Positions 41,413 through 62,288 of a DNA stretch of 64,000 bases are shown here, in pieces. The notes beneath the pieces are model-generated. The model had not been told where the DNA came from. It was given only the letters and a program-made list of their open reading frames with translations, and ran no database searches. Made by a program: the position numbers and the translations under genes. This stretch comes from Aequitasia blattaphilus (GTDB taxonomy: Bacteria; Bacillota; Clostridia; Lachnospirales; Lachnospiraceae), in contig NZ_JAMXOD010000015.1 in NCBI RefSeq assembly GCF_024721305.1, positions 27,245 to 91,244 on the forward strand, read 5' to 3'. Positions within the stretch are counted from its first letter, which is position 1. Every line of letters begins with the position of its first letter.

Positions 41413-42753
41413 CTAAGGTTTGTTTAAATAGATCCGCTGTCTTGATTCGGGAATTCCCAGTTGTTTCCGATACTTCGTCACAGTTCTGCGTGAAATATCG
41501 ATTTGTCTCTCTTGCATAAGAGCGGCGATTTTTAAATCACTAAGGGGTTTTTGTTTATCCTCTTCAGCAATAATTTCTTGCATGTGCTGCTTGATATTAC
41601 CAATCGAAACATCTTCTTGTGAGGAAAAAGCCGTTGTTGTAAAGAGGTCTTTGATAAAAATAGTATGTCGATACTGAAGATACTTGTCTTTAATGGCTCT
41701 GCTGACGGTTGACACATGCAAATTGGTTCGTTTTGCCACGTCCTCCATGCACATGGGCTTTAAAGGGGTGCCTTTCAGGAAAAAATCCTCTTGTAACTCC
41801 AAAATAGCATAGATAATTTTGATAATTGTGCTACGCCGTTGTTCTACACAATTGAGGATAAAGCGGGCTCTTTCCAGCTTTTCTTTGAAATATTGAGTGA
41901 GCTCCTCGTCTTTAGATTCTTCCATCATTCGGAGATAGTAATCGTTATACTTATATTCTCCCATCCAATTATCATTTATTATTACATCCCAGGTATTTTT
42001 TTCAAAAGTAATAAGAATATCAGGAATAATATATTGGGTATTGTCTTTTCCAAGGCTCATAATAGGTCTGGGGTTTAATGTGCCAATATAATGAATATAC
42101 TCTCGTACTCTTGCAGTGGATAAGCCAAGAGTTCTTGAAACTGTTCCGATACGTCCTTGTAAGATATCTCCCATATGATGAGCAACAATGGAGTGAAGCT
42201 TCTCATCAGTTACTTGTGATGCATTCATTTGTTTTTGAAGGCATTCAGAAATGTCGGCGGAAAAAATGCCGATTGGCTCTAGATTCTTCAATACATTTAA
42301 GGCATCAGAAATACATTGCTCAGAGGCTCCAGAGACCTTGGAAATCTCTGAAACTTCATAGGTGAAAAACCCTTCTTCGTCCAAACAATAGGTGAGGTAC
42401 TTCATTAATTTCCACTGTTCAGATGAATATTCCGTTTTATGAAGCTGCCCCATTAAGAAGTCGGTGATTTCGTTTTCGGTTAGGGCTTGAATATCATTTC
42501 GATACTTGCAGTCATCATCGGCCCACTTAATATAATGATCTTTATAGGAAGTATTTTTTTCGTATAAAGTTTCAAGATTTTTAATCATATCATTTTGCTT
42601 ATCATGGCTGTTTTCTAAAATTGGATTCTCCAGATACTCGTTGAGCAGGATATTTTCCAGTTCTTGATTTGTACAGGCTAATATTTCCAGAGATTGAATC
42701 TGCTTTGAAGACAATATTTGGCGCTGTTCCAAACTTAATGTATTACTAAACAC
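41413..42753 (-). CDS. rpoN: RNA polymerase sigma-54 factor
   Basis: The 446-residue protein has the glutamine-rich N-terminal activator region (LSLEQRQILSSKQIQSLEIL), the core-binding part and the C-terminal RpoN box ISRRTVTKYRKQLGIPES that reads the -24 element. It directs transcription from GG-N10-GC promoters with enhancer-binding activators. Several such promoters lie to the right, beginning with that of the divergent lplA gene. Confidence 0.95.
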   Translation of the reverse strand: MFSNTLSLEQRQILSSKQIQSLEILACTNQELENILLNEYLENPILENSHDKQNDMIKNLETLYEKNTSYKDHYIKWADDDCKYRNDIQALTENEITDFLMGQLHKTEYSSEQWKLMKYLTYCLDEEGFFTYEVSEISKVSGASEQCISDALNVLKNLEPIGIFSADISECLQKQMNASQVTDEKLHSIVAHHMGDILQGRIGTVSRTLGLSTARVREYIHYIGTLNPRPIMSLGKDNTQYIIPDILITFEKNTWDVIINDNWMGEYKYNDYYLRMMEESKDEELTQYFKEKLERARFILNCVEQRRSTIIKIIYAILELQEDFFLKGTPLKPMCMEDVAKRTNLHVSTVSRAIKDKYLQYRHTIFIKDLFTTTAFSSQEDVSIGNIKQHMQEIIAEEDKQKPLSDLKIAALMQERQIDISRRTVTKYRKQLGIPESRQRIYLNKP

Positions 42754-42854: not shown

Positions 42855-42870
42855 TTGGCATGTTTTTTGC
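42855..42870 (+). promoter_or_regulatory. Sigma-54 promoter of lplA
   Basis: TTGGCATG-TTTT-TTGC has GG at 42857-42858 and GC at 42869-42870, ten bases apart, and lies about 43 bases before the lplA ATG. A TATAAT at 42873 has no -35 box at proper distance. Confidence 0.7.
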
Positions 42871-42912
42871 GTTATAATAGAGTAAATACTATGTTAAGAG
42901 AGGAAGATAAAT

Positions 42913-43899
42913 ATGATTTTTATTGAGAGTACATCAACAAACCCAGCATTTAATTTAGCGTTAGAAGAGTATGTATTTGATTATATGCCAAAAGATCAGG
43001 AATACTTTATGCTTTGGCAGAATGAAAATACAATTGTGGTGGGGAAGCATCAAAATACAGTAGAAGAGATTAATGCTGCCTACGTGAAGGAAAGGGGAAT
43101 TCAAGTAGTCAGACGTCTTTCGGGAGGTGGAGCAGTTTATCATGATTTGGGGAACATCAATTTTACTTTCGTAGTAGATGCAGACAACATTGAACAGCTT
43201 AATTTGCAGGCTTTTTGTCAACCTGTAGTGAAAACTTTAGAACGGCTGGGTGTAGAAGCTGAACAAAGCGGACGCAATGACATTACAATTGATGGGAAGA
43301 AATTTTCGGGAAATTCTCAGTATATAAAGGGGAAGAGAATCATGCATCATGGGACATTAATGTTTGATTCAGACTTATCCGTTGTAGCAGGTGCATTAAA
43401 GGTGACTGGGGATAAAATCCAATCTAAGGGCTTTAAATCCATCAGGAGCAGAGTTACTAATATCAGGCCACATATACCTGCCGATGTAGATTTGGAACGC
43501 TTTAAGCAAGTTCTGCGGGAATACATGGTACAGGGAGAGATGACACAGTATACGTTGACCAAAGAAGATATTGAAGAGGTGAAAAAAATTCAAAGGGAAC
43601 GTTACGATACATGGGAATGGAATTATGGCGCGTCACCGGAATTTCAAATTCAAAAAAGCAGAAGAATAGAAGGCTGTGGTAAAATTGATATTTCTATGAA
43701 TGTGGAGAATGGAGTAATTACGGATTATGATAGCCGCGGTGATTATTTTGGAGAGGGGGCAACTCCAGAGTTAAAAGAAAAACTGATTGGCTGCCGTTTA
43801 GAAGAAGGTGCTTTACAGGAGGCATTGAAGGGATTTGGGCTGGGAGCTTGCTACAGCAATTTGAGCTTAGATGATTATATTGAAGTTTTGTGCATGTAA
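42913..43899 (+). CDS. lplA: Lipoate-protein ligase
   Basis: The 328-residue enzyme attaches lipoate to dehydrogenase E2 domains. It shows NPAFNLALEEYVF, RRLSGGGAVYHDLGNINFTF, GRNDITIDGKKFSGNSQY and the C-terminal accessory domain (TWEWNYGASPEF). It lies divergent to rpoN with its own sigma-54 promoter, so it is probably induced with the lipoate-dependent complex at 52-57 kb, whose two lipoyl domains it would modify. Confidence 0.93.
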   Translation: MIFIESTSTNPAFNLALEEYVFDYMPKDQEYFMLWQNENTIVVGKHQNTVEEINAAYVKERGIQVVRRLSGGGAVYHDLGNINFTFVVDADNIEQLNLQAFCQPVVKTLERLGVEAEQSGRNDITIDGKKFSGNSQYIKGKRIMHHGTLMFDSDLSVVAGALKVTGDKIQSKGFKSIRSRVTNIRPHIPADVDLERFKQVLREYMVQGEMTQYTLTKEDIEEVKKIQRERYDTWEWNYGASPEFQIQKSRRIEGCGKIDISMNVENGVITDYDSRGDYFGEGATPELKEKLIGCRLEEGALQEALKGFGLGACYSNLSLDDYIEVLCM

Positions 43900-43911
43900 G
43901 TGTATCAAAAG

Positions 43912-43950
43912 AGAGATAGAGGAATGGTTTTGAAACCTTCCTCTATCTCT
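43912..43950. terminator. Long hairpin between lplA and the symporter genes
   Basis: AGAGATAGAGGAA (43912-43924) pairs perfectly with TTCCTCTATCTCT (43938-43950). On the minus strand CTTTTG follows. It probably ends both convergent transcripts. Confidence 0.65.
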
Positions 43951-43977
43951 GTGATATAGAAAATATAAAATTCGTGT

Positions 43978-44103
43978 CTATTCCTCGTCTTCGTCATTTA
44001 ACTTCCCTTTTCCCCATATGAGAGCAAAAAGAGAATAAATAATTCCAACAACAATAACACCTGTCATCCATCCAAGTTCTCCTGAACCATAAATTAAATC
44101 CAT
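43978..44103 (-). CDS. Tiny membrane protein, symporter small accessory protein-like (41 aa)
   Basis: This 41-residue ORF starts MDLIYGSGELGWMTGVIVVG, has one hydrophobic helix (WMTGVIVVGIIYSLFALIW) and an acidic tail ending NDEDEE. AGGAGGTAAC lies just upstream of the ATG. Tiny proteins of this shape accompany some Na+/solute symporters and may be accessory subunits. It is the last gene of the symporter operon, 13 bases after the next tiny gene. Confidence 0.65.
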   Translation of the reverse strand: MDLIYGSGELGWMTGVIVVGIIYSLFALIWGKGKLNDEDEE

Positions 44104-44116
44104 AAGTTACCTCCTT

Positions 44117-44233
44117 CTATTCTTCGTCATCATCAGTATCCTTCAGAAAAATTTTTCCGATTAACTGAAATACGACAACGATACCTATGATCATAGCAAC
44201 GGCTTGTACAAAAAATTGCATAAATAAGTTCAT
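44117..44233 (-). CDS. Tiny membrane protein, symporter small accessory protein-like (38 aa)
   Basis: This 38-residue ORF starts MNLFMQFFVQAVAMIIGIVV, is almost entirely one membrane helix, and ends in KDTDDDEE. AAGGAGGTAACCAC precedes the ATG. It follows the symporter stop by 12 bases. With the 41-residue ORF it forms a pair with the same plan (one helix, basic turn, acidic tail), suggesting a common function with the transporter. Confidence 0.65.
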   Translation of the reverse strand: MNLFMQFFVQAVAMIIGIVVVFQLIGKIFLKDTDDDEE

Positions 44234-44245
44234 GTGGTTACCTCC

Positions 44246-45754
44246 TTACGCTTTTACAGCAACTGTGCTTTTCTTTGTTTTAAAATATCCTGTGCTTCCG
44301 CCTGGTATAACGAGATTTAATATAATACCGCCAACCAAAGATACCGCTAAGGTTACATAAGGAAGCGGAACGCCGGTTAATCCAAGCATGGCCGGAACTG
44401 GCGTGTAAGTCCAAAGCAGGACACAGACCCAAGCAATACCGAATGTAGCACCAGCAGCTTTTCTGTTACGCTTCCAGAACATTCCGTAAATAACGTTAAA
44501 GAAGAGTGGAATCAACCATGCAAAGGCCCAGTTTGCGCCATTTACAATTTCTGGTAAGAAAGATGATACTCCCATTGCCACGATACCTGAAATAACAATA
44601 AAGATTCGGGTTATTTTTGTTTTTTGAGCACCAGATACATTTGGATCTTTTAATGTATAGATGTTATTTGCAAACAATGTTCCCATGCTCATGGTTGTAA
44701 TTGCAAAGGTAGAGAGCACGGCACCTAAGAAGGATGCCAAGAGCCAGGCTACCAACCAGCCAGGAAGATACTGGAGCAACATTGTGGCACCTGCTGTTTT
44801 TGCGGCTAGTGATTCGTTTGCAATCTCAAGAGATCCGGTGTTGTAGAGTGCTTTTGCAGCGACTCCCATTGCCATGGTAAAGATACCAAATATACCATTT
44901 ACAGGTGCAGCAATCCAAAGGGCTTTCCGTATTGTTTTTGAGTTCTTTGCCGCGGTTGTTGACTGAAGTCCCATTTGACTAATGCCTTGTGCAAAGGTTA
45001 CGGCAATAATATTACTAATACCAAAAGTGACAAATATGCCAGGACCACCCATGATATTAATCATGTGCTCCATATTATTGGTAGTGTAGTAGGTTTCAAC
45101 GAAATCCCAACCACCAGGAATAGCACTGCTTAAGAAAATGATACCAAGAGCTAATCCGATATACATAACAACAGTATTGATCATATTCACATAGCCGACT
45201 TCTTTCATTCCAGCTACGATAACATAAAAAATACCAATCAGACCACCGATAACGGTACCTGTTTGAATGCTAACGCTATTAAAGGTTAAGGTGTTGAAGA
45301 TAATACCTAATGCCTGTACTTCCATTGTCAAAATTGCAAAAGTCTGACCGGCAACAATACAAGTAACGATAATGGCTATTCTTTTACCAAATAATTTTTG
45401 AATTAGTTCAGGAACTGTGTTTACTTTCATGCGGCGAAGCCAACGTCCAGTAAACAAGCAGATTACGGCAATTGTTGTTACGTGGGCAATAGAGAACCAG
45501 ATGCTGGCTGCACCGATATTCCATGCCATTTCCATAATACCAAAAACGTGTACTGCACCTAAAATAGCAAGTGCTAAAGACACACCAACCATAACAGATG
45601 ACATACTGCGGCCAGATGTCATAAAGTCATCATCTTGACCAGCGGACGAAGTTTTTTCTTTTGCTTTTTCTTTTTTTTCTTTATTAAGAATATAGAGGCT
45701 AACGCCACCGATGGATATTACTTCATACAATAATACTGCAATTAAAATCCACAT
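44246..45754 (-). CDS. Sodium:solute symporter (SSS family)
   Basis: The 502-residue membrane protein has about thirteen helices and the LeuT-like core of the SSS family (GVSLALAILGAVHVFGIMEM, GISNIIAVTFAQGISQMGLQ, LLASFLGAVLSTFAITTMSM). It should take up the organic substrate of the island with Na+. The substrate class is not readable; members take up sugars, amino acids, betaines and organic acids. AGGAGGATTTAAAGT precedes the ATG. It is separated from the upstream dicupin gene by a terminator. Confidence 0.88.
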   Translation of the reverse strand: MWILIAVLLYEVISIGGVSLYILNKEKKEKAKEKTSSAGQDDDFMTSGRSMSSVMVGVSLALAILGAVHVFGIMEMAWNIGAASIWFSIAHVTTIAVICLFTGRWLRRMKVNTVPELIQKLFGKRIAIIVTCIVAGQTFAILTMEVQALGIIFNTLTFNSVSIQTGTVIGGLIGIFYVIVAGMKEVGYVNMINTVVMYIGLALGIIFLSSAIPGGWDFVETYYTTNNMEHMINIMGGPGIFVTFGISNIIAVTFAQGISQMGLQSTTAAKNSKTIRKALWIAAPVNGIFGIFTMAMGVAAKALYNTGSLEIANESLAAKTAGATMLLQYLPGWLVAWLLASFLGAVLSTFAITTMSMGTLFANNIYTLKDPNVSGAQKTKITRIFIVISGIVAMGVSSFLPEIVNGANWAFAWLIPLFFNVIYGMFWKRNRKAAGATFGIAWVCVLLWTYTPVPAMLGLTGVPLPYVTLAVSLVGGIILNLVIPGGSTGYFKTKKSTVAVKA

Positions 45755-45830
45755 ACTTTAAATCCTCCTCATAATTGAGACTCTCTCTGTATAATATTTG
45801 TTGCTTTTAGGGGTAAAAAAGGTTAAAAAA

Positions 45831-45879
45831 ACGACGCATAAAGATTTTATGTGTAAATACTAAAAAGATTATGCGCCGT
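45831..45879 (-). terminator. Terminator of the M24-dehydrogenase-dicupin operon
   Basis: On the minus strand ACGGCGCATAA and TTATGCGTCGT form a stem with one mismatch, followed by TTTTTTT (45824-45830 region). Confidence 0.75.
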
Positions 45880-45917
45880 AAAGGTTTTTTATATGTACTT
45901 AAAAATCAATGATCGAA

Positions 45918-46634
45918 TTAACGACAAGGACTTAATGATAAAGCAAACCGTACACACTGTTTACTTACATTTTCGATTTCCCATTTTGCTCCCATAGGTA
46001 CAACAAGAGCATCCTCTTGTCGATTCATCTCTAATTTCTCACCATCAACAGTAGCAACACATTTACCATTGTACATGTAAGCGATAACGTCAGACTTAGG
46101 AGTATCCAGTGTAAGCTTTGCTCCTGGGTATACGTCAACAATATGGAATTCCTGAGTAGCAGAGCCTGTTAATTCCTCATCTGCTAATGTGAAGAGTGTC
46201 ACTCCATCCATTTCTGTAACTTTTGCATCATTTAAGTTCTTGATATATGCTTCTGTCTGTTTGAATCCACGTGGACATAAGGTTACTAAGAATTTCAGGT
46301 TTGCAGTTCCGTCTGGATACATTTCATGATCTCTGTTACCAGGTGTCCACATGATATCACCAGCTTTGTAAACATATCTTTTTCCCTGAATAATTGAATA
46401 GCCTTCTCCTTCAAGAATATAGAATACGTGATCTGCAGGTCCATGGTTCGCTACTAAAGCAGCTCCACCATATGTGATTTCACAAATTGAAAAATATTGG
46501 TAAGTCCAGTCAGGACCTGCTGGATCATATCCCATTTTCATAGCATTTGCAAATGGTGCAGAGTGTGCATTTACGTGCTGAGCCGGAGCCATAGATCTCA
46601 TATCATAATAATTTTGTACATAAGCTTTAAACAT
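45918..46634 (-). CDS. Dicupin protein, ureidoglycine-aminohydrolase-like fold
   Basis: The 238-residue protein has two cupin barrels. The first has a metal-site-like pattern HGPADHVFYILEGEG and GDIMWTPGNRDHEMYPDG; the second is degenerate (GAKLTLDTPKSDVIAYMYNG, VVPMGAKWEIENV). Cupins of this size include (S)-ureidoglycine aminohydrolase and other small-molecule hydrolases or isomerases. ATG 46634 lies after GGAGGTATATATA; a start 15 bases upstream is less likely. It ends the operon with the M24 and dehydrogenase genes, implying a step in the same pathway. Confidence 0.75.
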   Translation of the reverse strand: MFKAYVQNYYDMRSMAPAQHVNAHSAPFANAMKMGYDPAGPDWTYQYFSICEITYGGAALVANHGPADHVFYILEGEGYSIIQGKRYVYKAGDIMWTPGNRDHEMYPDGTANLKFLVTLCPRGFKQTEAYIKNLNDAKVTEMDGVTLFTLADEELTGSATQEFHIVDVYPGAKLTLDTPKSDVIAYMYNGKCVATVDGEKLEMNRQEDALVVPMGAKWEIENVSKQCVRFALSLSPCR

Positions 46635-46691
46635 TATATATACCTCCAAGATTGTTTTTTTGATTTTTATAAGTAAATTGATTGTTTCTAA

Positions 46692-47573
46692 TTATCTAGT
46701 AATACCGCAGCTTTCTTCTAACACTTTTGTTAAAACTGCGAAATCAAGATCGCCTTTATCAGTAGCAACAGCAGCTTGTAAGCTTTGTCTTGTTAATGCA
46801 ACAGTAGGCATTGCAGCGTTGTATTGCTTTGCAGCATCAAAAGCAAGATCCAAATCTTTGATCATCATATTTGCGCTAAATGCTGGAGCATATTGGCCTT
46901 CTGCAACCATTTTGTGCTTGTATCCATAAAGTGGAGAACCTACTGCGCTTCCTGCAATTGCTTCGCCAGCTTCTGCAACATCAAGACCAGCCTTTTCGCA
47001 AAGAACGATTCCTTCTGCAAATAACTGCATTTGAGCAGCTAAGATAGAGTTGATTGCCAGCTTCAATACACGAGCTTCTTCGCCAGCGCCAAAGTAAGTT
47101 TGTTTTGCGCTCATGCAAGCGAGAAGTGGAGTTACTTCATCAAAAGAAGCTTTGTCTCCAGAACCGAGAACACCTAAAGTAGCATTTTGTGCAAGTGCAG
47201 TACTTCCTGTTACTGGACATTTTAGGAATTTGCATCCCTTTGCTTCGATTGCATCATTAACAGCTGCTGATTCAGATGGAGCAACTGTACTCATATCAAT
47301 TACGATTTTTCCTGATGCAAGACCTGCTACGACACCTTCATCTCCGAAGTTAACTGCATGTAAAGTAGGACCATTTGAAACCATTGTGAAAATGACATCA
47401 CTTGCCTCTGTTACAGCTTTTGGAGAGTCTGCCCATTTTGCACCAGCAGCTAATACCTCATCAGCCTTTGATTTTGTACGATTCCATACAGTTACTTCAT
47501 GACCTGCTTTTAACAGGTTTTGGCTCATTGGATTTCCCATATTTCCTAATCCAATCCATCCTATTTTTGCCAT
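46692..47573 (-). CDS. Beta-hydroxyacid dehydrogenase (3-hydroxyisobutyrate/tartronate semialdehyde reductase family)
   Basis: The 293-residue protein has the dinucleotide motif GLGNMGNPMSQNL, an NRT after the second strand suggesting NADP(H), the substrate loop MSTVAPS, and the catalytic lysine at about residue 171 (KLAINSILAAQ). Relatives act on 3-hydroxyisobutyrate, tartronate semialdehyde or succinic semialdehyde. Succinic semialdehyde would fit the 4-hydroxybutyrate genes further right, but this is only a possibility. AGGAGG precedes the ATG. Confidence 0.85.
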   Translation of the reverse strand: MAKIGWIGLGNMGNPMSQNLLKAGHEVTVWNRTKSKADEVLAAGAKWADSPKAVTEASDVIFTMVSNGPTLHAVNFGDEGVVAGLASGKIVIDMSTVAPSESAAVNDAIEAKGCKFLKCPVTGSTALAQNATLGVLGSGDKASFDEVTPLLACMSAKQTYFGAGEEARVLKLAINSILAAQMQLFAEGIVLCEKAGLDVAEAGEAIAGSAVGSPLYGYKHKMVAEGQYAPAFSANMMIKDLDLAFDAAKQYNAAMPTVALTRQSLQAAVATDKGDLDFAVLTKVLEESCGITR

Positions 47574-47612
47574 TTTAATACCTCCTCATTTCACTTTTTA
47601 ATAATATTAAAT

Positions 47613-47662
47613 GAAACAAACAAAATAAATTTATTCCTATTCATTTTATTTTGTTTTGTTTC
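47613..47662 (-). repeat. AT-rich inverted repeat between M24 and dehydrogenase genes
   Basis: GAAACAAACAAAATAAAT (47613-47630) is nearly complementary to the T-rich arm at 47643-47662. It may attenuate or stabilise the operon mRNA inside the 113-base gap. Confidence 0.5.
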
Positions 47663-47686
47663 AAATAGTTAAATTATAGTTGCTGT

Positions 47687-48922
47687 TTATGGAAACATTG
47701 TTCCAGGGAATCCACAAGAAACGATTTCGTCTGAAGGGAACTTAGTGATTACTTCATGACCTGTTTCAGTGACTACGATTTCTTCTTCTATACGAGCACT
47801 TCCAGTACCATCTGCTGATGGACACCAAGTTTCGATTGCAAAAGTCATACCTGGTTTGAACTCAAATGGATTATCCAATGAGAATAAACGAGAGATAGCA
47901 GGTTTTTCCCATAATCCTAAGCCAATACCATGAGCAAATTGAAGTAAGAAAGCTTCCTTTTCATTATTAAATCCTAATTCCTCTGCTGAAGGCCATACAC
48001 GAGCTACGTCAGCAGTAGTGTTGCCTGGTTTGATTTGTGCAATACCATCACGAATCCATTTCAGTGCTTTAGCGTAAGCTTCGTTTTGTTCTTTTGTTGG
48101 TTTACCACAAGAGAATGTACGATAGTAGCAAGTATGATATCCGTTGTATACATTTCCGATATCAAAGTAAACTAATTCGCCAGGACGAATCATACGGTTT
48201 GATGTGGTATGGCTATGTGGATTTCCGCGTTTTCCGGAAATACAGTTTACAAACTCAACAGATTCAGATCCCCATGCAAACAATTTTTGTTGAATCAATG
48301 CTGCCATTTCGTTTTCGGTTGCACCAGGACGAAGATTCTTAGCAACATCCCAATAAACAGCGTCTACCATTGCAGCAGAGCATTTTAGAAGCTCGATTTC
48401 ATCAACAGTTTTGATGACACGTACATCTTGCATTAACCCTTGAGCATCTCCGATTTCAATACCGAATTTTTCTAAGGCTTGCATCAATGGAATATCAACA
48501 ATGTCAATTCCAAGAGGTTTGTCGATTACACCGTACTCTTTTAAGAAACCGGTAATCTCAGTTACTTCCTGATCCACCATTCCGACTTCTTCCGGAATTG
48601 ATCCTCTCATCGAACCAACTGCAGGTAAAATATTTTCTGGACGAATCCAAGAAACTCTTTGACGCTTTGAAGGGCAAGCGGGATCAAAAAGTATTGGTTG
48701 ATCCACCCCGTCGATTAATAAGCAGTGACGATTCATTTTATTTCGATTCCACTCACCAATGTGAGTTCCGGTTATATAACGAATATTATCGAAATCATAA
48801 CATAGTAAAGCTCCGAATTTTGAGTCAGCCAGGAATTGTTTTGCACGAGCTAAACGCTCACGGCGCAACCTGTCATAATTTATATTATCCTCAAAATCAA
48901 CACCATTAAAACCTGATTGCAT
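47687..48922 (-). CDS. M24-fold (pita-bread) hydrolase with degenerate metal site
   Basis: The 411-residue protein has the creatinase-type N-domain (about 20-165) and the pita-bread domain. In aminopeptidases five ligands bind two metals. Here Asp254 (YFDIGN), His331 (HGIGLGLWEKP), Glu364 (IETW) and a Glu at about 380 align, but Cys265 replaces the second aspartate (GYHTCYYRTF) and Trp338 replaces the accessory histidine. Metal-independent relatives include creatinase; others cleave small C-N or C-S bonds. It heads the operon, 46 bases after a sigma-54 start. The start is ATG 48922 with AGGAGGAAC. Confidence 0.82.
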   Translation of the reverse strand: MQSGFNGVDFEDNINYDRLRRERLARAKQFLADSKFGALLCYDFDNIRYITGTHIGEWNRNKMNRHCLLIDGVDQPILFDPACPSKRQRVSWIRPENILPAVGSMRGSIPEEVGMVDQEVTEITGFLKEYGVIDKPLGIDIVDIPLMQALEKFGIEIGDAQGLMQDVRVIKTVDEIELLKCSAAMVDAVYWDVAKNLRPGATENEMAALIQQKLFAWGSESVEFVNCISGKRGNPHSHTTSNRMIRPGELVYFDIGNVYNGYHTCYYRTFSCGKPTKEQNEAYAKALKWIRDGIAQIKPGNTTADVARVWPSAEELGFNNEKEAFLLQFAHGIGLGLWEKPAISRLFSLDNPFEFKPGMTFAIETWCPSADGTGSARIEEEIVVTETGHEVITKFPSDEIVSCGFPGTMFP

Positions 48923-48979
48923 AGTATTTGTTCCTCCTTTTTTTGAAATTATTAATAGTTTATTTGATACAAATGTATA

Positions 48980-48995
48980 AAGCAAATGCCGTGCC
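48980..48995 (-). promoter_or_regulatory. Sigma-54 promoter of the M24 operon
   Basis: The minus strand reads TTGGCACG-GCAT-TTGC with GG-N10-GC spacing, the closest match to the -24/-12 consensus in the window. Confidence 0.85.
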
Positions 48996-49063
48996 AAACA
49001 AAGAATAATTAATAAAAAAAACATATATTTGTGCATTCTTTAACAAATGCGCTGTGTGTATCG

Positions 49064-49124
49064 ATGTGACAAGCTTTGGGATACAATGTGACAAAATGTT
49101 TCTATGTGACAGAAATGGCACATA
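49064..49124 (-). promoter_or_regulatory. Probable enhancer sites for the sigma-54 activator
   Basis: ATGTGACA occurs three times, at 49064, 49086 and 49104, 70-130 bases upstream of the M24 promoter. The last copy is part of an imperfect palindrome, ATGTGACAGAAATGGCACAT. Spacing and place are usual for activator binding. Confidence 0.6.
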
Positions 49125-49154
49125 GCGAGTCAAAATGGCGCACTGTTTATTGGC

Positions 49155-49185
49155 GAAAAAATAGCTCCATGCAAAATGGAGCTAT
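49155..49185 (-). terminator. Terminator of the activator gene
   Basis: ATAGCTCCAT (49161-49170) pairs with ATGGAGCTAT (49176-49185); on the minus strand ATTTTTTCGC follows. Confidence 0.85.
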
Positions 49186-49191
49186 TAGACA

Positions 49192-51234
49192 TTAAGAACG
49201 TCCGGAAAATCTCAGTTTATCCAAATCAATTTGATATTTTTCCAGCTTCCGATACAGTGTACGGCGGCTGATTTCAAGGCTTTCAGCAGCTTTTTTTATA
49301 TTCCCGGAAGAGCAAGTCAGGTGTTCTAATATTAATTGCTTCTCAGCTGTCATAACACTTGGTGCAGCAGCAGATTGATCGGAAACAACCTCTAAAGAAG
49401 GGGGATTCTCTTCAGGTGACTGTGCTATAGCATTCGAATTATGATATTGAATCATGTTCATAGGCAATGTATTTAGAGAGAGACGGCCATTTGTGGCTAA
49501 GATGCAAACCCGCTCAATGACATTTTCTAACTCACGAATATTTCCGGGCCAAGGATAATGAAGGAACAAGTCCTTAACATCCTCATCGATATGAACAATT
49601 GGGTCGTAGTCAGGATTCTGATATTTTTCCAGAAAATAGTCAACTAAATCAAAGACGTCAGATCCTCTTTTTGACAACGGCGGAATATGAAGGCTAAACA
49701 CATTTAAACGATAATATAAATCGCTTCTAAAAGTATGGTTTTGAATTGCTGCCTCCAAATCAACGTTGGTTGCGGTGATAATACGTACATTTAAAGGAAG
49801 CGTTTTTTTACCGCCAATACGTGTCACGGTTTTCTCTTGTAATACCCTTAAGAGTTTTACTTGTACCTCATAAGGCATGTCCCCGATTTCATCTAAAAAG
49901 ATGGTACCATTGTTGGCCAGCTCAAATTTTCCTGCACGACCATCCTTCTTTGCGCCGGTAAAAGAACCTGGATCATATCCAAATAGTTCACTTTCGATTA
50001 GCTCTTTTGGAAGAGCACCACAGTTTAGTGCAATAAAAGGACCCTTTGAAAAAGGACTGTGATTGTGGATGGATTGCGCAAAAAGTTCCTTTCCAGTTCC
50101 GCTTTCGCCGGTGATTAAAACATTGGTGCTGCTTTTAGCCACAAGCTTGGCCAGCTTTTTTGCCTGCTGGATTTGTGGGCTTGAGCCAATGATATTATCA
50201 AATACGTAACGAGCATCGGAACCGATTACTTTGTTAACCAATTGCTGGATGTATTCGGCACGGCGAAAAGATATCAAAACCGTTTCTTTGCTGTGGTTAT
50301 AACGAGAGTGAGAAATAAATTTAATGCTGACATAGCATTTGATGTTCTCGTGTTTACTTTGAAGAGTCGTTTCGATGTCATAGGTACTTTTTTCGAAGGT
50401 GCTTAAATCCAGGTAAGGGAAAAAACGTGTATAGTGCTGTCCCACTAATTCCTCAGTAGAAAAGTGCAGTGTATTTACGGTGGTGTTGTTGACAAAAGTG
50501 ATTCTGTCTAACTCGTCTAAAAGGAATGTTCCAGTGTGCAGGGAGTCCAGGGAGGTTTGTAAGTGGTCCCGCATCGTAGTTAAACTATCATTAGCCAGAG
50601 CTAATGAATATTGCCGAGAAATTGCTTCACTTGCAGCGGTAGCCATACCAAGAGTGTGGGCGTGGACTTTATTCCAGGCGCCACTGATACAGATTACTCC
50701 GAGAACATCGCCATTGCTGCCAAGAATCGGTGCTCCGGAGCAAGTCCAATTAGAACTCAATTCAATAAAATGTTCGTGAGCAAAAAGCTGAATAGGTTCC
50801 TTGGTGTACAAAGGAGTGCCAATGGAGTTTGTACCAATGATGGATTCGGAACGGGAGGTTCCTTCTATTAAAGGTATGTCCTTGGTTGTGGCTATTTCAA
50901 TGACGTCTTCATCGCCAATCATTTTGAGAATGTACCCGTCTTTATCAGCAAAAATGATGGCAAATCCAGAACCTGCTACAGATTGATATAGGTATTCCAT
51001 GAAGGAGGTTGCAATATCGTAAAGTGTTTGGTTGTTTTGGATGCGCCCTTGCAATTGTTCGGCTGATAAGACCTCGGGCTGTACATAATCAGGAATTAAG
51101 TGAAAGCTGCGAGAGCGAACCCAAGAATCTAAAATGGGCTTCTCGACTAATTCCGTTGGCAGTTCGTTCTTTTCGAAAAAAATTTCTCGGGCTTGTTTTA
51201 AATGTGTGAGATATTCTTCAGAAATCATAATCAA
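49192..51234 (-). CDS. Sigma-54-dependent activator, AcoR-like (GAF, PAS, AAA+, Fis-type HTH)
   Basis: The 680-residue protein has a GAF sensor (about 60-205), a PAS domain (about 225-330), an AAA+ domain with GESGTGKELFAQ, GTIFLDEIGD and the sigma-54-contacting loop GSFTGA (usual form GAFTGA), and a C-terminal Fis-type helix-turn-helix (KKAAESLEISRRTLYRKLEK). This is the AcoR layout, which activates acetoin dehydrogenase genes. It lies between the two catabolic operons with sigma-54 promoters on both sides, so it probably activates both on sensing the substrate. Confidence 0.92.
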   Translation of the reverse strand: MIMISEEYLTHLKQAREIFFEKNELPTELVEKPILDSWVRSRSFHLIPDYVQPEVLSAEQLQGRIQNNQTLYDIATSFMEYLYQSVAGSGFAIIFADKDGYILKMIGDEDVIEIATTKDIPLIEGTSRSESIIGTNSIGTPLYTKEPIQLFAHEHFIELSSNWTCSGAPILGSNGDVLGVICISGAWNKVHAHTLGMATAASEAISRQYSLALANDSLTTMRDHLQTSLDSLHTGTFLLDELDRITFVNNTTVNTLHFSTEELVGQHYTRFFPYLDLSTFEKSTYDIETTLQSKHENIKCYVSIKFISHSRYNHSKETVLISFRRAEYIQQLVNKVIGSDARYVFDNIIGSSPQIQQAKKLAKLVAKSSTNVLITGESGTGKELFAQSIHNHSPFSKGPFIALNCGALPKELIESELFGYDPGSFTGAKKDGRAGKFELANNGTIFLDEIGDMPYEVQVKLLRVLQEKTVTRIGGKKTLPLNVRIITATNVDLEAAIQNHTFRSDLYYRLNVFSLHIPPLSKRGSDVFDLVDYFLEKYQNPDYDPIVHIDEDVKDLFLHYPWPGNIRELENVIERVCILATNGRLSLNTLPMNMIQYHNSNAIAQSPEENPPSLEVVSDQSAAAPSVMTAEKQLILEHLTCSSGNIKKAAESLEISRRTLYRKLEKYQIDLDKLRFSGRS

Positions 51235-51251
51235 GCTCCTTCTTATTGGGA

Positions 51252-51288
51252 TTTAGTCAAAATGACTAAAGTTTGGCTTAATATTTGC
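51252..51288 (+). promoter_or_regulatory. Sigma-54 promoter with adjacent palindrome (SGNH gene)
   Basis: TTGGCTTAATATTTGC has GG at 51275-51276 and GC at 51287-51288, ten bases apart. Just upstream TTTAGTCA-AAA-TGACTAAA (51252-51270) is a perfect 8-bp inverted repeat, unusually close for an enhancer. Confidence 0.7.
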
Positions 51289-51364
51289 TATATACTATCC
51301 AATGTATCAAGTTTATCATAGACGACTGGCAGATTCAAGTGAGGAATCGGGAAAGGTAATGAAA

Positions 51365-51943
51365 ATGAAAAAAGGTATGAATGTAGTGTGTTTGGGCGAT
51401 AGTATTACCGCAGGAGTACAAATAAATAGTAGTGACAAGTGGATTACAATTTTAAATCGAGAATCTAAATTTACCTATTTAAATAAGGGGATTCCGGGAG
51501 ATACAACGGGAGGCATGCTGGCGCGGATGCAGCGGGATGTGATTGAGTCTGATGCAAGCAATGTATTGGTGATGGGAGGATGGAATGATTTGATTGCAGG
51601 GGTATCTCCTGGAGTGATACAGAGCAATATAATGGCCTTGGTTCACCAGGCATGGTTTCATAAAATTGTGCCAATAGTGGGAATTCCCATGTTTTTTGAA
51701 CCCTCTATGATTTCAAAGGAGTGGAGGGAGTTTATCAATTTTCAAGAGCTGGAAAAGCATGTCCGTCAATATCAAAAATGGCTGCATCAGTTTTCGAAAA
51801 TATTTCATACAGAAGTAGTTGATTTTGAAGAGGGCTTACAGGTTCTTGGAACAAAATCCAGAGAAGATTACCTTCTGGATGGATTACATCCGAATGAGGC
51901 AGGAAATTTGCTAATGGCAAAATGGATATTGAGACATGAATAG
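51365..51943 (+). CDS. SGNH/GDSL-family esterase or lipase
   Basis: The 192-residue protein shows all four blocks: GDSITAG (nucleophile Ser), NKGIPGDTTGG, GGWNDL (Asn) and DGLHPNEAG (Asp/His). No signal peptide is present, so it acts in the cytoplasm and would cleave an ester or acyl group from a small molecule. The start is uncertain; ATG 51365 has AAAGG eight bases upstream, and ATG 51302 would be almost at the predicted transcription start. It may act early in the island's pathway. Confidence 0.8.
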   Translation: MKKGMNVVCLGDSITAGVQINSSDKWITILNRESKFTYLNKGIPGDTTGGMLARMQRDVIESDASNVLVMGGWNDLIAGVSPGVIQSNIMALVHQAWFHKIVPIVGIPMFFEPSMISKEWREFINFQELEKHVRQYQKWLHQFSKIFHTEVVDFEEGLQVLGTKSREDYLLDGLHPNEAGNLLMAKWILRHE

Positions 51944-51950
51944 AAGGATG

Positions 51951-52054
51951 TGTATCAAAAATGACAGATAGTGTGTCAAAAAGACACAATATACGTGTGA
52001 TATCTTTGGGATTTGTCAAAAAAATGACGAATTTATCTTTGGCATGATATTTGC
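51951..52054 (+). promoter_or_regulatory. Sigma-54 promoter and upstream sites of the dehydrogenase operon
   Basis: TTGGCATGATATTTGC (52039-52054) has GG-N10-GC spacing. Upstream are three related sites: TGTATCAAAAATGACA (51951), the near-palindrome TGTGTCAAAAAGACACA (51972) and TTGTCA-A6-TGACGAA (52013). They share a GTCA/TGAC core with the palindrome before the SGNH gene. Confidence 0.75.
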
Positions 52055-52111
52055 TTATTATTATATATAAAATCTAAAATAAGCTTTCATTCAAGAATAG
52101 GAGGAAATATT

Positions 52112-53068
52112 GTGACGAAGCAAGAAAAAAAACAAAAGGCAAAAGAGTTTTATACAATAATGTATCGAACCAGAAGGTTTGAGGAAGAAGTATTTGAATT
52201 TTATAAGCGTGGTTTAATGCCAGGACTAGCTCATCTGTATTTAGGAGAAGAAGCAGTAGCGGCAGGTGTCTGTGGAGCATTAGAAGAAAAAGACTATATT
52301 GGTAGTACCCACCGTGGCCATGGCCATTTGGTATCAAGAGGTGCAGACTTAAATAAGATGATGGCTGAAATTCTTGGTAAAGGAACGGGATATTCAAAAG
52401 GTAAAGGTGGATCCATGCATATTATGGCAATGGATAAAGGAATCCTTGGAGCCAATGGTATTGTGGGTGGTGAAATTCCAATTGCAGTTGGTTCTGCATA
52501 TGCCTCTTTATATAAAGGAACTGATGAAGTTACAGTATGTTTCTTTGGAGACTCAGCATCCAATGAGGGAACATTTCATGAAAGTATAAATATGGCGGCA
52601 GCATGGGATTTGCCTATCGTATTTGTTGTTGAAAACAATCTGTACGGAATTTCTGTTGACATTCGTCGTGTAACAAAAGAACATCACATTGCAAAAAGAG
52701 CAGCAGGGTATGGCATAGATGGGTTTACAATCGATGGAAACGATGTGTTTAAAGTATATGAAACAACACAAAAGGCAGTCGACAAAGCCAGAAAAGGTGG
52801 AGGACCAACAATTATTGAGTGTATGACCTATCGCTGGCAAGGACATCACGTTGGAGATCCAGGGGTTTATCGTCCGGAAGAAGAGGTTGCAGAGTGGAGA
52901 GCGAGAGATCCAATTACAAATCTGGAAGGGTTGTCGCTGTTAACAGAAGCTGAGATTAAAGAAATTAAAGAACTCGTTGATAAGGAAATGGAAGAAGCGT
53001 GTAAATTTGCAGAGGAAAGCCCATATGCAGACGTATCAGAAGCTTACACAGACGTATTCGTAGATTAG
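52112..53068 (+). CDS. acoA: TPP-dependent dehydrogenase E1 alpha (acetoin dehydrogenase-like)
   Basis: The 318-residue subunit contains STHRGHGHLVSRGADLNKMM, GKGGSMHI and LGANGIVGGEIPIAVGSA, close to AcoA. The TPP/Mg motif reads GDSASN (residues 146-151) where most members have GDGxxN; Ser148 replaces the usual Gly. It starts at GTG 52112 after AGGAGG. With E1 beta it would oxidatively cleave acetoin or a related 2-oxo compound to an acyl-CoA. Substrate identity is inferred from similarity only. Confidence 0.85.
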   Translation: MTKQEKKQKAKEFYTIMYRTRRFEEEVFEFYKRGLMPGLAHLYLGEEAVAAGVCGALEEKDYIGSTHRGHGHLVSRGADLNKMMAEILGKGTGYSKGKGGSMHIMAMDKGILGANGIVGGEIPIAVGSAYASLYKGTDEVTVCFFGDSASNEGTFHESINMAAAWDLPIVFVVENNLYGISVDIRRVTKEHHIAKRAAGYGIDGFTIDGNDVFKVYETTQKAVDKARKGGGPTIIECMTYRWQGHHVGDPGVYRPEEEVAEWRARDPITNLEGLSLLTEAEIKEIKELVDKEMEEACKFAEESPYADVSEAYTDVFVD

Positions 53069-53083
53069 GGAGGGAGAAAAATC

Positions 53084-54058
53084 ATGAAAAATATAATGTA
53101 TAGAGATGCCATTTTAGAAGCCTTAGATGAGGAAATGGCACGGGACGATTCTGTTTTTAATATGGGAGAAGATGTAGGATTCTTAGGTGGAAACTTTAAA
53201 ACTACGGTAGGTCTCATGGAGAAATATGGGGATTTAAGATGTAAGGATACCCCGATTTCAGAAGCAGGGTTTGTCGGGCTTGGCGTAGGAGCTGCGCTTC
53301 GAGGATTAAGACCAGTTGTAGAGTTGATGTTTGGAGACTTTCTTATGGTAGCCATGGATCAAATTTGTAATCAAATGGCAAAAATCACCTATATGTCAGG
53401 AGGACAGGCAAATGTACCAATGGTTATCCGGTTGCCAATGGGTGGAGGACGTTCTTCGGCGGCTCAACACTCCCAGTCTTTTCATGCATGGATGGCTCAC
53501 TGTCCTGGAATGAAGGTGGCAGTACCCTCTACAGCAGCAGAAGCAAAGGGACTACTTAAAACTGCAATCAGAGATAATAATCCAGTGGTTTTCTTTGAAC
53601 ATAAAATGCTGTATACAGTAAAGTTTGATGTGCCAGAGGATGAAGATTATACAATCCCATTTGGACAGGCAAGAATGGTATCGGAAGGAAAGGATATTAC
53701 AGTAGTAACCAATTCCCTTATGACGATTAAGGCTGAAAAGGCAATTAAGAAGCTGGAAAAAGAAGGATACACAGTTGATCATATTGATTTAAGAACGATT
53801 GTACCATTAGATACAGATACGATTATCAAATCAGTAAAGAAAACCGGAAAACTCATTATTATTGATGAAGGTCATGAATCCTTTGGCATCAGTGGTGAAA
53901 TTGCAACACGTATTATGCCAGATGTTTTTTACGATTTGGAGGCACCAGTTAAGAGACTTGGAACAGCAGATGTACCATTGCCATTTAGCCCGGCTTTGGA
54001 ATTTCCGTTAATACCAGATGAAAAGAGAATATATGCAGCAATTAAAGAATTACTGTAG
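53084..54058 (+). CDS. acoB: TPP-dependent dehydrogenase E1 beta
   Basis: The 324-residue subunit has MYRDAILEALDEEMARDDSV, DTPISEAGFVGLGVGAALRG and the transketolase C-terminal region with IDEGHESFGISGE. It pairs with E1 alpha 15 bases upstream, with GGGAGGGAG before the ATG. Confidence 0.9.
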   Translation: MKNIMYRDAILEALDEEMARDDSVFNMGEDVGFLGGNFKTTVGLMEKYGDLRCKDTPISEAGFVGLGVGAALRGLRPVVELMFGDFLMVAMDQICNQMAKITYMSGGQANVPMVIRLPMGGGRSSAAQHSQSFHAWMAHCPGMKVAVPSTAAEAKGLLKTAIRDNNPVVFFEHKMLYTVKFDVPEDEDYTIPFGQARMVSEGKDITVVTNSLMTIKAEKAIKKLEKEGYTVDHIDLRTIVPLDTDTIIKSVKKTGKLIIIDEGHESFGISGEIATRIMPDVFYDLEAPVKRLGTADVPLPFSPALEFPLIPDEKRIYAAIKELL

Positions 54059-54080: not shown

Positions 54081-55421
54081 ATGGCAGAAGTAATTTGTAT
54101 GCCTAAGCTGGGTTTCAATATGGATGAAGGTCAGCTGGTACGTTGGTGCAAGTCAGTTGGCGAAGAGGTTAAAAAGGGAGACGTTTTATTTGAAATTAAT
54201 ACAGATAAAACAACTATGCCAGTGGAATCAACGGATGAAGGCTTTTTATTAAAAACGATGTTAGAAGAAAATGAATATGCAGAAGTATTTACACCAATTG
54301 CAGTAGTTGGTGGAAAAGATGAAAACCCAGAAGCAGTATTACAAGCTTATGGCGGTGGCGAAAGCACCTCAGCAGAAGAAACACCGGTGGTAGAAGCAGC
54401 ACCAGCTGAAGAGAAAGCAGCACCACAGACAGAAGTGGCAGTAGGTGATTTGAAACTGACACCAAAAGCAAAACGCATGATTCAGGAAGAAGGTATTGAT
54501 CCACAAAGTCTAAGTTCAATCGAAGGAACAGGATATGAAGGCGGTATTACTGCAAAAGATATTAAAGCTTCACCTCTTGCCCGAAAACTAGCAGACAAAA
54601 CAGGAGTGGATTTATCAACTGTGACTGGAACTGGTGTAGGCGGAAAAGTGATGAAAGCAGATGTGCTTGAGGCTAAAAAAACAGCAGAAGAACCAAAGGC
54701 AGAACCAGTATCAAGCTGCTGCAGTAAAAAAGTGGCATCCACAGTGCCTTACAAGGGAATTCGTAAAATAATCGGTGAGAAATTAGCAGAAAGCAAGTTC
54801 ACAGCGCCACATCTCTATTTTACAGATGCGATTGATACAACGAATATGACAGCGTTCCGCAAGGAGATGAATGAAGTTTCTGAACGGAAAATCACTGTAT
54901 CTGACATCCTGGTTTATGCAGCAAGCAAAGCGTTGACGAAGTACCCAGGAATCAATACCTCCTTAGTGGATGGGAATATTATCACCTATGAAAGCACCAA
55001 TGTTGGAGTTGCAGTGGCAGGAGATAATGGATTGATTGTTCCAGTTATTAAAAATGTTCAAGAAAAAACTTTGACGAAGGTTTCAGAAGAAAATCGTGAT
55101 TTGGTAGACCGGGCAAAAGAAGGTAAATTATCGCCGGAAGAATATTCAGGTGGCACGTTCTCCATTTCAAACCTTGGTATGTTTGGAATTGGAAACTTTA
55201 CGGCAATCATCAACCCGCCGGAATCAGCAATCCTCTCCGTTAGTTCTGTTCGTAAAACACCAATCGTTGTAGAAGAAGATGGGGAAGATAAGGTGGTTAT
55301 CAGGCCAATGATGAATATCCAGCTTACTGTGGATCATCGTGTCATTGATGGATTATTGGCGGCACAGTTTGTTGCATATTTAAAAGAATTATTGGAGAAT
55401 CCGTTAAAAATCTTAATGTAA
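54081..55421 (+). CDS. acoC: Dihydrolipoyl acyltransferase E2 with tandem subunit-binding domains
   Basis: The 446-residue protein has a lipoyl domain with the lipoate-accepting Lys43 (INTDKTTMP), an Ala/Glu/Pro linker, two consecutive peripheral-subunit-binding domains (about 126-161 with IEGTGYEGGITAKDI and 164-197 with VTGTGVGGKVMKADV), and a catalytic domain with VDHRVIDG. Most E2 chains have one subunit-binding domain. The catalytic domain moves the acyl group to CoA. Confidence 0.9.
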   Translation: MAEVICMPKLGFNMDEGQLVRWCKSVGEEVKKGDVLFEINTDKTTMPVESTDEGFLLKTMLEENEYAEVFTPIAVVGGKDENPEAVLQAYGGGESTSAEETPVVEAAPAEEKAAPQTEVAVGDLKLTPKAKRMIQEEGIDPQSLSSIEGTGYEGGITAKDIKASPLARKLADKTGVDLSTVTGTGVGGKVMKADVLEAKKTAEEPKAEPVSSCCSKKVASTVPYKGIRKIIGEKLAESKFTAPHLYFTDAIDTTNMTAFRKEMNEVSERKITVSDILVYAASKALTKYPGINTSLVDGNIITYESTNVGVAVAGDNGLIVPVIKNVQEKTLTKVSEENRDLVDRAKEGKLSPEEYSGGTFSISNLGMFGIGNFTAIINPPESAILSVSSVRKTPIVVEEDGEDKVVIRPMMNIQLTVDHRVIDGLLAAQFVAYLKELLENPLKILM

Positions 55422-62276: not shown

Positions 62277-62288
62277 GAGGAGTTGACC

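Follow-up and report, generated by a model that had tools for sequence, protein, structure and literature searches.

A putative sigma-54 regulon with a single activator, apparently dedicated to a proposed catabolic pathway through succinate semialdehyde, in Aequitasia blattaphilus

The window analysed here is a stretch of 64,000 nucleotides (nt) from contig NZ_JAMXOD010000015.1 of Aequitasia blattaphilus (genome 3.2 Mb, 97.5% complete by estimate); coordinates are 1-based in this window. It carries rpoN, the gene for sigma-54, and a sigma-54 activator of the enhancer-binding protein (EBP) type together with lplA for a lipoate-protein ligase, an operon headed by a gene for an M24-fold enzyme, a gene for an SGNH hydrolase and an operon that encodes a thiamine pyrophosphate (TPP)/lipoate dehydrogenase complex and 4-hydroxybutyrate enzymes (Table 1). 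We consider it probable, with some reserve, that these genes form a sigma-54 regulon with a single activator, dedicated to one catabolic pathway, which would run through succinate semialdehyde. This organism appears to keep its one sigma-54, its single clear activator, its one lipoate ligase and its one set of lipoyl domains for a single pathway. New here are the probable point of convergence of the pathway and a sigma-54 that seems dedicated to it; sigma-54 is usually seen as a shared factor serving many activators.

Four sites with GG and GC spaced by N10 were found in the window, each ahead of a gene. Relative to the clostridial sigma-54 consensus given in section 6 of PMC6615313 (TTGGCATN5TTGCT), the site of the E1-alpha gene has no mismatch and the sites of the M24, SGNH and lplA genes have one each. 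The preliminary description had placed four such sites at these genes, with an activator and rpoN in the same region; both statements were confirmed, the latter by Pfam domains. The pattern TGGCWYN5TTGC matches only these four sites in the window (0.84 expected; at least four matches in 2 of 100 shuffles), a flattering figure because the pattern was fitted to the sites themselves, and we relied on the published consensus instead. With at most one mismatch allowed, this consensus matches the genome 34 times and its reverse 15 times. Thirty of the 34 were checked against mechanically called open reading frames (ORFs) of at least 60 amino acids (aa), the other four having no locus. Three window sites lie clear of any such ORF, each directed at a gene; that of M24 is inside an over-long ORF call, yet before the ribosome-binding site, the real start being at 48922 after AGGAGG. 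Among these 30 matches, every site outside the window with intact GG and GC lies inside a frame of at least 77 aa, and none combines a position free of open frames with a gene downstream. The looser fitted pattern, with two or more mismatches to the consensus allowed, gave 29 matches genome-wide against 13 for its reverse.

To analyse the conservation of these promoters, M24 homologues were taken from 35 genome loci and from L132, a locus of genome G154 of the same order. About 350 nt upstream were scanned, and sites with intact GG and GC and at most two mismatches were counted. A restricted set comprised L005-L033 and L132, with L020 omitted for its short upstream stretch and with L029 and L031 representing one genome. 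A site precedes M24 in 17 of all 39 loci, 12 of these sites having one mismatch or none, and in 16/29 of the restricted set; for E1-alpha the corresponding figures are 11 of 21 (nine with one mismatch or none) and 10/14. Shuffling, performed for these two restricted sets, gave expectations of 0.33 and 0.10. The operon of the Fe-dependent alcohol dehydrogenase of 4-hydroxybutyrate dehydrogenase type (FeADH) has a site in all three loci that were scanned (two of them with one mismatch or none). Among random segments drawn from the loci, 2.2% contained a site (0.9% at one mismatch or fewer), and no site for M24, E1-alpha or FeADH turned up on the opposite strand or with the reversed pattern. Upstream of internal genes, sites were rare or absent (cupin 0/19, E1-beta 0/14, E2 0/8, HIBADH-family dehydrogenase 2/24). 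Upstream regions of the EBP gene showed a site in 1/20 and, on the opposite strand, which is the side of the divergent operons, in 13/20. The sites lie 43-104 nt ahead of the inferred start codon, except in L036 (144) and L139 (203).

The window rpoN is the only PF04552 match in its genome. Its presumed partner has the features of a bacterial enhancer-binding protein, with GAF, PAS, AAA+ and Fis-type domains, a match to HTH_8, the Walker A motif GESGTGKE and the loop GSFTGA, which section 5 of PMC6615313 lists as a still functional variant of GAFTGA. Of the PF00158 matches in the genome it alone is strong (240.7 bits); three others, in open frames of 438-869 aa, score 24.9-33.7 bits, over the family cut-off, and are presumably other AAA+ proteins. 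The window EBP may be among those listed in PMC6615313, a study that excluded EBPs lacking orthologues. TGTGNCA/GTCA dyads of varying spacing were found upstream of three promoters, those of M24, SGNH and E1-alpha. Three ATGTGACA repeats sit 67-114 nt upstream of the M24 site, a 19-bp palindrome adjoins the SGNH site, and a palindrome and a GTCA dyad precede the E1-alpha promoter. A single strict motif common to the promoters was tried and rejected, leaving dyads only. Since their spacing is not uniform, the dyads are suggestive as predicted activator sites shared by the promoters. Sigma-54 requires an activator, and with a single strong EBP the genuine sigma-54 promoters of this genome should depend on the window EBP; as no comparable site was found elsewhere among the 30 of 34 matches examined, one regulon is the natural reading.

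PF21948 matches the genome only at the window lplA, and PF00364 has four matches there, two of biotin type (AMKL, AMKM) and the E2 and E3 of the cluster with the lipoyl-type motif DKT. The single genomic match to GcvH is below its cut-off and is located at a biotin-type domain. In this genome the cluster thus seems to be the sole recipient of lipoylation; this links lplA to it by function, with or without a sigma-54-dependent promoter.

The association of the M24 enzyme with the TPP/lipoate complex recurs in other organisms. In 36 M24 loci, with up to 10 kb on each side and many stretches cut by contig ends, the EBP was found beside M24 in 26, the HIBADH-family dehydrogenase in 25, the cupin in 20, E1-alpha in 17, the sodium:solute symporter in nine and lplA in eight. 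E1-alpha was counted rather than E1-beta, whose tally holds a 29% match (L030) that is perhaps another TPP enzyme. M24 stands next to TPP/lipoate genes in Clostridia, a Treponema metagenome-assembled genome (MAG), marine Rhodobacterales, a Streptomyces and a haloarchaeon, a Haloferax. In a tree of 31 E1-beta sequences (FastTree supports, midpoint rooted), those of the window, G154, Treponema and loci labelled Planctomycetaceae group together (0.998); other Clostridia (0.997) and then M24-bearing plasmids of Rhodobacterales (0.929) join them. Other M24-linked E1-beta sequences stand elsewhere: L035, L036 with Streptomyces (1.0) and Haloferax with a pyruvate dehydrogenase (PDH) of Paenibacillus (1.0). 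Several deep nodes are weak (0.129-0.5), including the place of L035. It seems that a TPP/lipoate E1 came to accompany M24 on about four occasions, drawn from different E1 lineages, and this speaks for a functional link.

M24 peptidases bind their metals through Asp, Asp, His, Glu and Glu. In the window protein the corresponding residues are D254, C265, H331, E364 and E379, all invariant in 35 aligned sequences. C265 aligns with an Asp of prolidase, so that the peptidase ligand set fails at its second Asp, and Cys occupies this position in 43 of 43 homologues (the 35 aligned and eight plasmid-borne sequences). Judged by these residues, the M24 protein is no ordinary prolidase. DMSP lyase DddP (NF043017, 112.7 bits against a cut-off of 600) and ectoine hydrolase DoeA (TIGR02993, 60.6 against 613; NF038259, 85.7 against 575) were rejected as identities, and guesses at the substrate (DMSP, i.e. 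dimethylsulfoniopropionate, ectoine, creatine, pantothenate, trigonelline, 4-hydroxy-5-oxohexanoate and hydroxyproline-derived 2,5-dioxopentanoate) found no support. DddP, DoeA and creatinase, all non-peptidase M24 enzymes, resemble the window protein in fold and small-molecule context; they differ in sequence (18-24% identity in structural alignments), and the window protein has a Cys metal ligand and a TPP/lipoate partner.

At the other end of the pathway, best PDB sequence matches place 4-hydroxybutyryl-CoA dehydratase (AbfD), 4-hydroxybutyrate CoA-transferase (AbfT) and a 4-hydroxybutyrate dehydrogenase type in one gene run. The latter assignment is to the protein named Cvir-Hbd2, which we take to be a 4-hydroxybutyrate dehydrogenase. 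FeADH of this type accompanies the cluster in L007, L008 and L011, and in L011 FeADH, AbfD and AbfT stand beside EBP and M24. A plasmid survey gave 49 records with an M24 gene, of which eight annotated regions, with incomplete gene tables, were read. Five of the eight regions have a gene named succinate-semialdehyde dehydrogenase (SSADH); in Phaeobacter, Pacificitalea, Tritonibacter and Streptomyces it lies inside the M24-E1 run, and in Haloferax it comes fifth after M24. For the Phaeobacter enzyme, eight of the nine best PDB matches are named SSADH (top 471 bits). Two unrelated routes of succinate semialdehyde removal near the same core suggest this compound as the likely meeting point of the pathway.

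Sites, genes, conservation and linkage were computed, and from them we infer the ligand, every enzymatic step and succinate semialdehyde as the meeting point of the following scheme. The GAF-PAS activator would sense a ligand inside the cell, probably the substrate or one of the first intermediates, bind TGTGNCA/GTCA-type sites and drive sigma-54 polymerase at the M24, SGNH and E1-alpha promoters, possibly also at lplA. An organic-acid-like substrate would be taken up by the symporter and cleaved by the M24-fold enzyme, and the HIBADH-family dehydrogenase with the cupin may then produce a keto compound. After lipoylation by LplA, the E1/E2/E3 complex would split this into an acyl-CoA and succinate semialdehyde. 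Succinate semialdehyde could be converted to crotonyl-CoA by 4-hydroxybutyrate dehydrogenase, AbfT and AbfD, and crotonyl-CoA to acetyl-CoA by the hydratase, 3-hydroxybutyryl-CoA dehydrogenase and thiolase.

Several observations weigh against a single regulon and a single pathway. At lplA, no sigma-54 site was found upstream in the eight other loci (0/8), no TGTGNCA/GTCA repeat lies near the window site, and a TATAAT hexamer (42873-42878) follows directly downstream of it. At two mismatches or fewer, 13/29 M24 and 4/14 E1-alpha upstream regions are without a site, and the loci are related, so that the counts are non-independent trials. One match of the looser fitted pattern elsewhere in the same genome (L050, C13:10762-10776; two mismatches) lies 131 nt upstream of an ORF of 185 aa that has a ribosome-binding site; the only frame overlapping it is one of 71 aa on the other strand, and the site may be a further, distant target. 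The MAGs of L008 and L011, with an EBP beside M24, show no rpoN, perhaps through incompleteness. AbfD/AbfT occur near M24 in 1/36 loci and FeADH in 3/36, so that the 4-hydroxybutyrate branch may be a local graft. As for the aerobes, SSADH is not listed in three of the eight plasmid regions (two of Paenarthrobacter, one of them cut by the end of the record, and Rhodococcus), and three of the five SSADH-bearing plasmids are from related Rhodobacterales. Their dehydrogenases score under the curated SSADH cut-offs (the best NCBIfam model of the Phaeobacter enzyme is SSADH, at 555 against 646), and aldehyde dehydrogenase names are broad.

It is a serious possibility, though one we doubt, that the sites are partly due to chance: only the M24 and E1-alpha promoters would be real, lplA would be transcribed through sigma-A, and the SGNH site would be a by-product of the divergent EBP region. 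The adjacent TATAAT, the missing conservation and the missing upstream repeat at lplA agree with this, as does the finding that SGNH homologues lie near M24 in 2/36 loci, the sole one tested (L019) having no upstream site (0/1). It is opposed by the sites themselves, each with at most one mismatch, outside open frames and directed toward a gene, a combination unmatched in the rest of the genome among the 30 of 34 matches examined, and by the palindrome that adjoins the SGNH site. The single response that the preliminary description had proposed for all four promoters is, as a prediction, well supported for M24, SGNH and E1-alpha (one strong EBP, sites and dyads), the sites of M24 and E1-alpha being conserved in other genomes, and weakest for lplA with its unconserved, repeat-less site. 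We regard lplA as a weak, doubtful member of the regulon whose inclusion is plausible by function. The E3 of Clostridium magnum (AcoL) has an N-terminal lipoyl domain, as has the window E3, and in the AcoR/acoABCL systems of Bacillus and Clostridium an EBP stands beside the sigma-54 promoter of an E1/E2/E3 operon, as it does here. The dehydrogenase operon could thus serve plain acetoin catabolism, with the 4-hydroxybutyrate genes and the M24 operon as unrelated neighbours sharing the activator. Table 1 of PMC6615313 lists acoABCL under AcoR as a predicted sigma-54 regulon in Clostridium, sigma-54 promoters of aco and other operons and an AcoR with a GAF domain, as in the window EBP, are described for Bacillus thuringiensis (PMC4428206), and the best score of E1 alpha is with a PDH-type model. 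We nevertheless hold acetoin catabolism to be unlikely. The window E1-beta groups with M24-linked sequences of Clostridia, Treponema and Rhodobacterales (0.929), apart from acoAB of Thermus, its best plasmid-borne match is the M24-linked one of Phaeobacter, and no acetoin reductase was seen among the cluster genes. The node that joins it to the E1-beta of Acinetobacter, in whose operon an acetoin reductase is present, has a support of only 0.129, so that an E1 of acetoin type is conceivable. The window also differs from acoABCL in that its operon runs on into 4-hydroxybutyrate genes and in a second operon (M24, HIBADH-family dehydrogenase, cupin, symporter) with the same kind of promoter.

Two further alternatives concern the chemistry. 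The complex might form 4-hydroxybutyryl-CoA directly from 5-hydroxy-2-oxopentanoate without release of succinate semialdehyde, the FeADH reducing 2,5-dioxopentanoate. The gene order (E1 to E3, alcohol dehydrogenase, AbfD) agrees with this, and 2-oxo acids are the normal substrates of E1/E2/E3 complexes. This route would leave AbfT in the operon and the SSADH-type enzyme of aerobes unexplained, and the FeADH is by far closest to a protein named Hbd2; we judge it quite improbable. Still less credible is a true Xaa-Pro peptidase in a cluster for peptide or proline catabolism. DoeA (28.7), creatinase (27.8) and DddP (27.2), whose substrates are small and non-peptidic, come near behind for the M24 protein, the metal-binding Asp is replaced by Cys in every homologue (35/35 aligned and 8/8 plasmid sequences), and a TPP/lipoate partner recurs beside M24. 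In Bacillus thuringiensis a 'proline dipeptidase' (HD73_4161) is listed with a sigma-54 promoter, its EBP being given as unknown (PMC4428206).

A pathway through succinate semialdehyde under one activator, as preferred here, shares single parts with known systems. In the 4-hydroxybutyrate fermentation of Clostridium aminobutyricum and C. viride, 4-hydroxybutyrate dehydrogenase, AbfT and AbfD act in turn and crotonyl-CoA is converted to acetyl-CoA. This route is fed by transamination of gamma-aminobutyrate, whereas in the window the feeder would be the TPP/lipoate complex; C. aminobutyricum DSM 2634 itself carries an M24-EBP-E1 cluster (L019). Predicted sigma-54 control of a gene named abfD is also found in Clostridium under XanR (abfD-nifU-hyp-ach-golB; PMC6615313, Table 1); the other genes of that row differ from those of the window, no acoABCL-type operon or lplA being named in it, and no row of that table names lplA or combines an acoABCL-type operon with abfD. 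We found no account of this gene set in the openly licensed literature, and the remark in the preliminary description that the combination is not a known pathway holds so far. Tentatively, we propose an apparently undescribed pathway of Bacteria and haloarchaea that would be opened by a Cys-ligand M24 enzyme and in which a TPP/lipoate complex would yield succinate semialdehyde and an acyl-CoA; aerobes would continue with SSADH and fermenters with 4-hydroxybutyrate, and some anaerobes would have their own sigma-54, sole activator and lipoate ligase. If this is true, a sigma factor can be an accessory that accompanies a single pathway. Identification of the substrate would assign a function to many genes annotated as Xaa-Pro or M24 peptidases.

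Carriage of the cluster was compared across genomes. The EBP was found in 1/61 genomes (its own) at E 1e-100, M24 in 2/195 (its own and G154) at 1e-80, and a strong rpoN match (E <1e-40) in 9/61, its own included. Two congeners, G001 (98% complete) and G002 (91%), had no rpoN, EBP or M24 at E <1e-40, 1e-100 and 1e-80, respectively. In the window the cluster starts after rplQ; at this place G001 shows a glyoxalase-like gene followed by an unrelated ORF and enolase, and G002 a gene of adhE size (names by reading); an E1-beta with 48% identity lies elsewhere in G001. In G154 (83% complete, another family of the same order) a 16.5-kb contig (L132) carries E1-alpha, E1-beta, E2, E3, EBP, M24, HIBADH-family dehydrogenase, rpoN and thiolase on one strand, with a sigma-54 site 50 nt before E1-alpha and ORFs after thiolase that read as a TRAP transporter. 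Over residues 119-444 its RpoN has about 33% identity with the window protein, and its genes stand in another order than in the window, so that the linkage of rpoN to the cluster is either old or arose twice. On this contig (1-16463) rpoN lies in apparently the same run behind the sigma-54 site, and co-transcription would place the gene under its own product. Among M24 genomes, rpoN is present in 23/26 (25 locus genomes and G154) and was found in none of those of L008, L011 and L030; the genomes of L017, L020, L023, L026, L034-L036, L038 and L039 stood outside this search, and L031 is the L029 genome. It lies within the fetched M24 stretch in 1/36 loci (L132). The G+C content of the window is flat (0.367-0.424 per 4 kb) and the cluster is not distinct, which speaks against very recent acquisition from a donor of another base composition; on composition, a recent foreign origin was rejected. 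The right end of the cluster lies beyond the contig. We conclude that the cluster is, by its distribution, probably accessory in the family of Aequitasia blattaphilus. The patchy occurrence of rpoN in Clostridia, which does not follow phylogeny (PMC6615313, section 5), becomes testable as carriage with pathways, the two congeners without an rpoN match being a case in point.

Table 1. Features of the window (S54, sigma-54 site; mm, mismatches to the published consensus)
Feature	Position	Strand	Evidence
rpoN (sigma-54)	41413..42753	-	Pfam Sigma54_AID, CBD, DBD all over cut-off
S54 before lplA, TTGGCATGTTTTTTGCG	42855-42871	+	1 mm
lplA, lipoate-protein ligase	42913..43899	+	TIGR00545 427.6 bits, cut-off 280
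Small membrane-type ORF, 41 aa, end of M24 operon	43978..44103	-	read from translation
Small membrane-type ORF, 38 aa, adjoins symporter	44117..44233	-	read from translation
Sodium:solute symporter (putative uptake)	44246..45754	-	Pfam SSF 2e-24
Cupin-domain protein	45918..46634	-	Pfam Cupin_2 3.4e-14; PDB matches weak
Beta-hydroxyacid dehydrogenase, HIBADH/tartronate-semialdehyde reductase family	46692..47573	-	Pfam NAD_binding_2, NAD_binding_11; TIGR01505 239 bits, below cut-off 340.75
M24-fold enzyme, proposed first enzyme	47687..48922	-	Pfam Peptidase_M24 3.4e-41
S54 of M24 operon, TTGGCACGGCATTTGCT	48981-48997	-	1 mm
Three ATGTGACA repeats, probable activator sites	49064, 49086, 49104 (49064..49111)	+	3 of 4 ATGTGACA in window
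EBP, GAF-PAS-AAA+-Fis sigma-54 activator	49192..51231	-	Sigma54_activat 5.5e-71
19-bp palindrome TTTAGTCAAAATGACTAAA, containing GTCAAAATGAC	51252..51270		between EBP and SGNH, adjoining SGNH site
S54 of SGNH gene, TTGGCTTAATATTTGCT	51273-51289	+	1 mm
SGNH/GDSL hydrolase	51302..51943	+	Pfam Lipase_GDSL_2
Palindrome TGTGTC-N5-GACACA, probable activator site	51972..51988		upstream of E1-alpha promoter
Dyad GTCA-N6-TGAC	52015..52028		upstream of E1-alpha promoter
S54 of dehydrogenase (E1-alpha) operon, TTGGCATGATATTTGCT	52039-52055	+	exact consensus, 0 mm
TPP-dependent E1 alpha	52112..53068	+	TIGR03182 369 bits, below cut-off 393.85
TPP-dependent E1 beta	53084..54058	+	PDB matches to E1 beta of PDH/branched-chain keto acid dehydrogenase (BCKDH); tree
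E2 acyltransferase with lipoyl domain	54081..55421	+	PF00364; DKT lipoyl motif
E3 dihydrolipoyl dehydrogenase with own N-terminal lipoyl domain	55437..57137	+	TIGR01350 563 bits, over cut-off; PF00364
FeADH, 4-hydroxybutyrate dehydrogenase type	57150..58268	+	PDB 30sm 'Cvir-Hbd2' 544.6 bits, next 103.8
4-hydroxybutyryl-CoA dehydratase (AbfD)	58287..59738	+	PDB 1u8v 817 bits; next vinylacetyl-CoA isomerase 627
4-hydroxybutyrate CoA-transferase (AbfT)	59761..61068	+	PDB 3eh7 583 bits
Thiolase-like	61080..62276	+	reading of ORF; 55% match to L132 frame
Enoyl-CoA hydratase-like	62283..63038	+	reading of ORF
3-hydroxybutyryl-CoA dehydrogenase-like	63053..63892	+	reading of ORF; contig ends 108 bp on

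The SGNH gene probably starts at 51359 or later, at one of its in-frame ATGs, because the sigma-54-dependent start site would be near 51300. Some of the M24 loci showed variations of the gene set. A contig labelled Planctomycetaceae (L037, 10001-14645), with the M24 match in two pieces, has a cluster much like that of Clostridia and may be mis-binned. In L012, L005 and L029 a short-chain dehydrogenase/reductase and an old-yellow-enzyme-type oxidoreductase lie near M24, with no cupin match and, in L005 and L012, a xylose-isomerase-like TIM barrel; these gene sets hint at sugar-like substrate variants. A Clostridioides difficile plasmid (L145, 5005-12969) carries an E1-E2-E3 operon with an adjoining sigma-54-interacting regulator and glycoside hydrolases upstream, and no M24 is annotated in this stretch. 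On plasmids of Streptomyces (L140) and Paenarthrobacter (L141) a flavin reductase lies near M24, in Streptomyces together with an LLM flavin oxygenase, which suggests an oxygen-dependent entry step in aerobic actinobacteria. The two small ORFs beside the symporter gene in the window each encode one hydrophobic stretch and an acidic tail, their start regions are 72% alike over 29 nt, and they are possibly small accessory subunits of the symporter.

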